In this document: one piece after another, positions 19,281 to 27,659 of the stretch
Numbering within the stretch: the stretch's first letter is position 1
Layout of the letters: each line of letters begins with the position of its first letter
NCBI GenBank assembly: GCA_903916555.1
Contig: CAIWXG010000412.1
Span: forward strand, 1-36,276
Source of the DNA: an uncultured Bacteroidota bacterium
GTDB lineage: Bacteria; Bacteroidota; Bacteroidia; Chitinophagales; Chitinophagaceae
DNA: 36,276 nt
Direction of reading: 5' to 3'
Translations under genes and position numbers: made by a program
The notes under the pieces: generated by a model
Told to the model about the DNA's origin: nothing
Databases searched by the model: none
What the model saw: the letters and a program-made list of their open reading frames with translations, nothing else

Positions 19281-19349
19281 TTTTCAGAATATATTGCCTT
19301 TCGCTGTTTGAAATGTATTTTTAATTGATTTCTCGATATTAGTATTATT

Positions 19350-19479
19350 ATACCATTTAGACATTAAAAAGTGTGATGAATATTTTATATCATATAGCCC
19401 TGAAAGGGCTTAATAGCATAACATGGGCATAGCCCTATGCTATGCGAGTGTGCGTAGCATTTTGATGTCCAATTGGTAT
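19350..19479. repeat. Compact palindromic (REP/MITE-like) element
   Basis: About 130 bp bounded by 20-bp imperfect inverted repeats (19350-19369 and 19460-19479, 17 of 20 matching) reading ATACCA-TT--GACAT-AAAA. Inside are two further hairpins. One is AGCCCT/AGGGCT with a GAA loop (19396-19410). The other is a nested stem TAGCATA/TATGCTA with inner GGGC/GCCC (19414-19442). The GC-rich palindromes stand out from the AT-rich surroundings. I recall similar AGCCCTGAAAGGGCT-containing intergenic repeats from other Bacteroidota, but copy number cannot be tested here. The rest of 19281-19710 holds only the terminator below. Confidence 0.65.
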
Positions 19480-19642
19480 CACATTATATCCCCCCTCTTC
19501 GGGATTAATATTTTGCGAATTATATTTTTTCTATAACAATACCACACTTTTCAGAATATTAATTTTGCGTACAAATCCGCTCAAATCCTTTATTTTATGT
19601 GTAGGCGCAAAGAGTTTTATTTGATAATTTGTGCGAGCATTT

Positions 19643-19695
19643 CATAAAATCAATAATGCCATTCCAAAATAGGGAATGGCATTATTGATTTTATG
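19643..19695. terminator. Bidirectional hairpin terminator between rnz and the outer-membrane protein gene
   Basis: Perfect 23-bp inverted repeat (19643-19665 with 19673-19695, 7-base loop), 15 bp beyond the stop of the leftward outer-membrane protein gene and 362 bp beyond rnz. Confidence 0.8.
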
Positions 19696-19710
19696 ATAGA
19701 TAGAATATTA

Positions 19711-24135: not shown

Positions 24136-24317
24136 TTGTGCCTTTGTTGGTGTTTTCACCAACAAACAACATCATAATCCAAAATAGCTAAGTTTTTTAT
24201 CTTTATATTCGCTTTGTTGGTGCTTTCATAAACAAAAACTTATTATAATTAAAATGGATTATACTCGTCATCGGAAGAACCAACTATTTGTTGGTGAAAA
24301 CACCAACAAAGGCGTAA
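24136..24317 (+). repeat. 182-bp MITE-like direct repeat, left copy
   Basis: It matches 27478-27659 with 6 mismatches and no gaps. The two ends form 31-bp terminal inverted repeats with 29 matches, and each end is itself a hairpin with arms TTTGTTGGTG and CACCAACAAA around TTTT or AAAA. A degenerate third hairpin lies in the middle (about 24212-24236). No long ORF is present. The size, terminal symmetry and lack of coding capacity fit a miniature transposable element or another structured repeat. Confidence 0.85.
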
Positions 24318-27397: not shown

Positions 27398-27529
27398 ATG
27401 TCTTTTAACGAACTCAATAGTGTTGAACATCTTATTATAAAGGAATTGACCGGTGTCAACCTGAATAATACCGAAATTTGTGCCTTTGTTGGTGTTTTCA
27501 CCGACAAACAACATCATAATCCAAAATAG
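27398..27529 (+). pseudogene. Truncated gene, possible N-terminus of type I restriction subunit HsdR
   Basis: The ATG 2 bp after the nuclease-like gene starts MSFNELNSVEHLIIKELTGV and continues to about residue 27, then runs into the right copy of the 182-bp repeat at 27478 and stops at 27529. From memory this beginning resembles a group of type I restriction R subunits in Bacteroidota that start SFNELNxVEHxII. The remaining gene, normally about 1000 codons, is absent. The tight spacing shows it was the fourth gene of the operon before the repeat removed it. The HsdR identity needs a database comparison. Confidence 0.45.
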
Positions 27530-27659
27530 CTAAGTTTTTTATCTTTACATTCGCTTTGTTGCTGTTTTCATAAACAAAAACTTATTATAATTAAAATGGA
27601 TTATACTTGTCATCGGAAGAACCAACTATTTGTTGGTGAAAACACCAACAAAAGCGTAA
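27478..27659 (+). repeat. 182-bp MITE-like direct repeat, right copy
   Basis: Same orientation and length as 24136-24317, with 176 of 182 positions identical. It interrupts the fourth gene of the accessory operon. Its first terminal hairpin carries one change (CACCGACAAA), leaving the right terminal hairpin intact. The terminal hairpins could also act as terminators for the operon. No duplicated target site could be defined with confidence. Confidence 0.85.

Follow-up and report, generated by a model that had tools for sequence, protein, structure and literature searches.

A dispersed inverted-repeat element of an uncultured Bacteroidota genus, probably a MITE, shares its ends with IS630-family insertion sequences

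Results

An inverted-repeat element between rnz and an outer-membrane protein gene

The window, i.e. the whole stretch of 36,276 nucleotides analysed here from an uncultured Bacteroidota genome, contains the 430-bp gap described in the initial annotation, bounded by the stop of rnz (19280) and a convergent outer-membrane protein (OMP) gene (19711). Of the gene labels, rnz is backed here solely by a metallo-beta-lactamase match, and the adjacent gene has a weak Pfam OMP match (E 8e-4). Within the gap lies an element of 130 bp (19350-19479) that is overlapped by no open reading frame (ORF) of at least 80 aa. Read directly from the sequence, its outer arms ATACCATTTAGACATTAAAA (19350-19369) and TTTTGATGTCCAATTGGTAT (19460-19479) are complementary at 17 of 20 positions, and the two GC-rich hairpins enclosed by them are likewise present as first described, together with a possible third (Table 1). 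The transposon boundaries fall one base inside the arms on both sides (TTA/TACC...GGTA/TCA, 19351-19478).

Scanning the window for arms matching at 17 or more of 20 positions with gaps of 50-110 returned this site and matches within two 182-bp repeats, and none in six order-1 Markov simulations of the window. The predicted single-strand fold of the element, calculated with DNA parameters, is more stable than that of 200 of 200 shuffles on each strand (z = -4.1 and -4.5).

Table 1. Features of the element and of the surrounding rnz-OMP gap
Feature	Position	Basis and remarks
Left target-site trinucleotide, TTA	19348-19350	Flank comparison among copies and exact terminus matches elsewhere
Left terminal inverted repeat, TACCATTTAGACATTAAAA	19351-19369	Conserved among copies; equals IS630-family IS termini (Terrimonas, same-genus genome)
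Internal hairpin 1, AGCCCT-GAA-AGGGCT	19396-19410	In both subfamilies, larger in B; without covariation
Internal hairpin 2, CATGGGC-ATA-GCCCTATG	19422-19439	Sequence and fold of the minus strand; without covariation
Alternative hairpin, GCTATGC-GAGTGT-GCGTAGC	19439-19458	Sequence and fold of the plus strand; one base shared with hairpin 2
Right terminal inverted repeat, TTTTGATGTCCAATTGGTA	19460-19478	Conserved in subfamily A; 17/19 against the IS630-type right end TTTTAATGTCTAATTGGTA
Right target-site trinucleotide, TCA, differing from TTA by a single base	19479-19481	Flank comparison
Perfect 24-bp inverted repeat, 7-nt loop	19642-19696	In the gap where rnz and the OMP gene converge; outside the element

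In a second genome of the same genus (G002), the sequence alignable with the window resumes at 19642, exactly at the 24-bp inverted repeat, which is likely a bidirectional terminator and is kept in G002. The left alignable block ends at 19282 and the two blocks lie on different contigs with a different gene order; for the window copy, the empty-site comparison meets a region downstream of rnz in G002 that cannot be aligned. About four synteny breaks relative to G002 occur within 19 kb of the window, most of them away from the element, and with so high a base rate the break at the element is no evidence for its involvement.

An old, intergenic family with two subfamilies

The genome-wide searches proposed at the outset establish that the element is multicopy, with about 17 copies on 15 contigs of the 4.1-Mb draft genome when blastn, pattern scan and covariance model are combined. 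While blastn alone returned 10 places, to which the arm pattern added others, a covariance model derived from ten of the copies identified 17 distinct places at E <= 0.01, besides reverse-strand duplicates; the weakest of these (C136, C455 and C56) have no recognisable ends. Using stricter filters, the same model detected two copies in G002; it recovered no copy from 59 further relatives. The copies fall into subfamily A (about 120-130 bp), which includes the window copy, and subfamily B (about 145-150 bp), in which hairpin 1 is longer, the ends and architecture being common to both. Identities amount to 83-90% within A except for C90 (73-78%), to 73-80% within B and to 60-73% between the subfamilies, indicating that the family is old.

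All 17 copies are intergenic, as none overlaps a predicted ORF of at least 80 aa. According to naive ORF calls, eight are located between converging and nine between tandem genes, and their absence between diverging genes (p about 0.008 under equal chances, gap lengths ignored) suggests that insertions into promoter regions have probably been removed by selection. The sister genome lacks the C406 copy at the orthologous site, between the two corresponding genes (G002:C77). Here, the right flank aligns to within about 10 bp of the element and the left flank has diverged, and the comparison hence demonstrates absence rather than an exact junction.

The 182-bp repeats of the window (24136-24317 and 27478-27659) are 97% identical, their ends being palindromic (TTTGTTGGTGTTTTCACCAACAAA...). 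In G002, similar sequence occurs at more than 20 places, several of them at contig ends. They represent a second, more abundant small family unrelated to the element at 19350-19479, which fits the earlier view that the genome harbours at least two small repeat families.

Ends shared with IS630-family insertion sequences

The termini of the element, TACCAWTTAGACATTAAAA, are those of IS630-family insertion sequences (ISs) in Bacteroidota. A scan of the terminus pattern ATACCANTTAGACATTAAAA across a public collection of 84,980 genomes yielded 41 stretches, nearly all from Bacteroidota. As many as 24 of these are found less than 200 bases from a contig end in three Bacteroidetes MAGs (Umea_bin-01667, YR2_bin-1295 and MJ-time_bin-5332), presumably of freshwater origin given their names. 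The inner sequence next to the termini is near-identical within each MAG and, combined with the position at contig ends, this points to a multicopy IS that breaks the assembly. In all three, the inner sequence codes for a transposase C-terminus; that of YR2 matches the Terrimonas protein (9e-12), and those of Umea and MJ-time resemble the Terrimonas transposase as judged by eye only.

An IS of 1.1 kb with both ends assembled is present in Terrimonas RI_572 (L052, 1156-2271), where TTA precedes TACCAATTAGACTTTTATA and follows TTTTAATGTCTAATTGGTA. Its two overlapping ORFs match the IS630 transposase NF033545 (3e-12, below the cut-off, and 2.6e-35, above it), as well as DDE_3 (PF13358, 8.4e-24). 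Within the genus, G002 carries a degraded IS with broken IS630 frames (L096, on C166), in which TTA flanks AACCATTTAGACATTTAAA...TTTCAATGTCTAATTGGTA on both sides, and a further copy (L091) with one end found and the frames broken. The transposase of L052 (1185-2265), L091 and L096 is distributed over two overlapping frames split near an A-rich run, which might reflect programmed frameshifting or decay.

In the element's own genome, no intact IS with such ends was found, only a relic on C483, in which a degraded transposase piece (59% identity over about 50 aa, with internal stops) is followed by TTTAAACATCTAATTGATA and TAA; the partner IS is therefore deduced from relatives and this relic. 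Homology between element and IS is confined to the ends of about 19 bp, the interior of the element being without IS homology. Short elements with IS630-type ends, TWA flanks and unrelated interiors also occur in T7_bin-146 (L059, L081 and L085), there at contig ends, and in Arachidicoccus (L077), and these are candidates for additional MITE families that use the IS630-type ends.

Flanking trinucleotides indicate duplication of TWA

Forty of the 41 exact terminus matches are preceded by TTA (19) or TAA (21). Seven copies of the genus have clean ends and are bordered by TWA on either side; of these, six have identical flanks (C365, C332, C406, C360, C17 and G002:C10), the exception being C245 with unequal flanks. 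Including the ISs L052 and L096 and the short elements L059 and L077, matching flanks are observed in 10 of 11 cases, against an expectation of one half, and this indicates that insertion duplicates TWA rather than the TA usual for IS630. Duplication of a 2-bp TA was considered and rejected: flanks match only as 3 bp, and in the Umea MAG one and the same IS end is found next to TTA as well as next to TAA, which excludes a TA duplication by an asymmetric element. The window copy, which has diverged, has the non-identical flanks TTA and TCA.

Two copies are associated with a difference in gene order. Two genes that are adjacent in G002 (C198; 70 bp apart, L168, 9326-9396) are separated in the own genome, where one is found on C245 and the other on C217, both beside a copy of the element (L171, C245, 3410-3554; L172, C217, 3729-3854), and on C245 homology to G002:C198 stops exactly at the start of the element (3410). 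The flanks, TAA/TTA on C245 and TTG/TCA on C217, would fit a reciprocal exchange after which two of the flanks each underwent a single change, which we regard as a lead only. In G002, the two outer neighbours, Y and X, are placed on C111 and C102, respectively, and their adjacency is not established; considering also the high base rate of synteny breaks, a rearrangement driven by the element is suggestive only and was not retained.

Discussion

Based on the combined evidence, we propose that the element is a non-autonomous MITE, coding for nothing and moved in trans by an IS630-family transposase, with a probability of roughly 0.92. It is non-coding, dispersed in many copies and delimited by terminal inverted repeats in common with autonomous ISs of the IS630 family, 3-bp target duplications are evident at the level of the family, and a copy is absent from an orthologous site. 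The MITE option of the initial annotation is thereby favoured over the REP-like element and the structured RNA that had been listed beside it.

The ends of about 19 bp would serve as putative binding and cleavage sites of the transposase. In the past, transposase supplied in trans by an IS with the same ends would have moved the element into TWA (TTA or TAA), and the trinucleotide would have been duplicated on repair after insertion. Since only a degraded partner transposase was detected, we infer that the family is no longer active in its own genome, and the window copy, a genomic parasite left between two genes, is probably inactive, too. The internal hairpins, for which no sign of an RNA function emerged, are probably carried along passively.

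A structured RNA, or a regulatory or terminator element in the 3' region of rnz selected for its fold, would agree with the strong predicted fold (z about -4), with the position of the window copy between converging genes and with the lack of copies between diverging ones. However, the inverted repeats account for the fold without any RNA function, no Rfam match was obtained in the window at the gathering threshold, counts of covarying pairs equal those of shuffled controls, the element is absent downstream of rnz in sister genomes, and a separate, perfect terminator-like hairpin (19642-19696), kept in G002, lies in the gap, making this explanation highly improbable. A single copy lacking covariation had originally been named as the observation that would speak against the element; covariation is indeed absent, but the element is multicopy, a combination expected of a transposon rather than of an RNA.

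Even less credible is a REP- or BIME-like palindrome that owes its spread to a RAYT (Y1 tyrosine transposase), despite the intergenic, palindromic nature of the several copies and their GC-rich hairpins. The RAYT search suggested at the outset, with PF01797 (Y1_Tnp), gave no match in the own genome and was positive in control genomes. Moreover, REPs are characterised neither by long terminal inverted repeats nor by 3-bp duplications, the ends match IS630, and lengths of 120-150 bp in about 17 copies contrast with palindromes of 20-40 bp at high copy number. The copies could also be internally deleted IS remnants that never moved on their own, i.e. fossils rather than a MITE, as might be argued from their divergence and from the partner persisting only as a relic. 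Yet they have a common interior that is not IS-derived, form two defined subfamilies at many sites and bear TWA duplications on both sides; that this interior recurs at numerous unrelated positions speaks against independent deletions, and we give this origin hardly any weight.

These results tie a repeat family of an uncultured Bacteroidota genus, so far unannotated, to a probable transposase and remove a false lead, a structured RNA or REP, for the rnz-OMP gap. The exact terminus furthermore provides a convenient probe for such ISs and MITEs, a source of breaks in metagenome assemblies. Should it be confirmed, the 3-bp TWA duplication would be a departure, open to testing, from what is usual in the well-known IS630 transposase family. 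The target duplication of Zator elements is TWA. IS630/Tc1 elements duplicate TA (PMC7325037), and duplications of TAA and TATA are on record for Fot pogo-type elements (PMC7386202) and Sailor (PMC8533490), respectively. It is conceivable, though on balance doubtful, that the present elements, together with their ISs, constitute a separate IS630 lineage with TWA in place of TA as the target that is duplicated, a bacterial counterpart of the eukaryotic Zator/Fot-type choice, and that MITE copies have acted as recombination points.

The family is new, but its kind is already known. The nearest precedent is RUP of Streptococcus pneumoniae, with IS630-Spn1 as its proposed mobiliser (Oggioni and Claverys 1999, reviewed in PMC2229807). 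As summarised in that review, RUP is a non-coding intergenic repeat of about 107 bp with ends matching an IS630-family IS, the proposed mobilisation being in trans; compared by description, it uses a TA target and exists in 108 similar copies, whereas the present MITE uses TWA (3 bp), comprises about 17 old copies and resides in another phylum. Instead of the duplicated TA dinucleotide typical of RUP, flanks of TTA/TTA or TAA/TAA were found.

Nezha is reportedly linked to an IS630/ISY100-type partner and is said to use a TA target. A MITE of cyanobacteria (Zhou 2008, as cited in PMC10969869), it resembles the present one in having a probable IS630/Tc1-type partner and differs in sequence and host. 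The Correia/NEMIS and ERIC sequences are likewise palindromic intergenic repeats of about 100-150 bp able to fold as RNA, but, compared by description, they have TA termini and no partner IS is recognised for them in PMC2229807. Our survey of the open-licence literature found no IS630-related MITE in Bacteroidetes, those on record using IS5 or IS982 ends. BrickBuilt/MITE239 of Porphyromonas gingivalis, with IS5-family ends (PMC4596501), and MITECca01 of Cardinium, associated with IS982 (PMC9769881), belong to the same phylum and share their ends with a resident IS, yet the IS families and targets differ from those of the present MITE. Its ends and the transposase of its presumed partner are instead those of the IS630 family (NCBIfam NF033545), which duplicates TA, whereas the group described here duplicates TWA.
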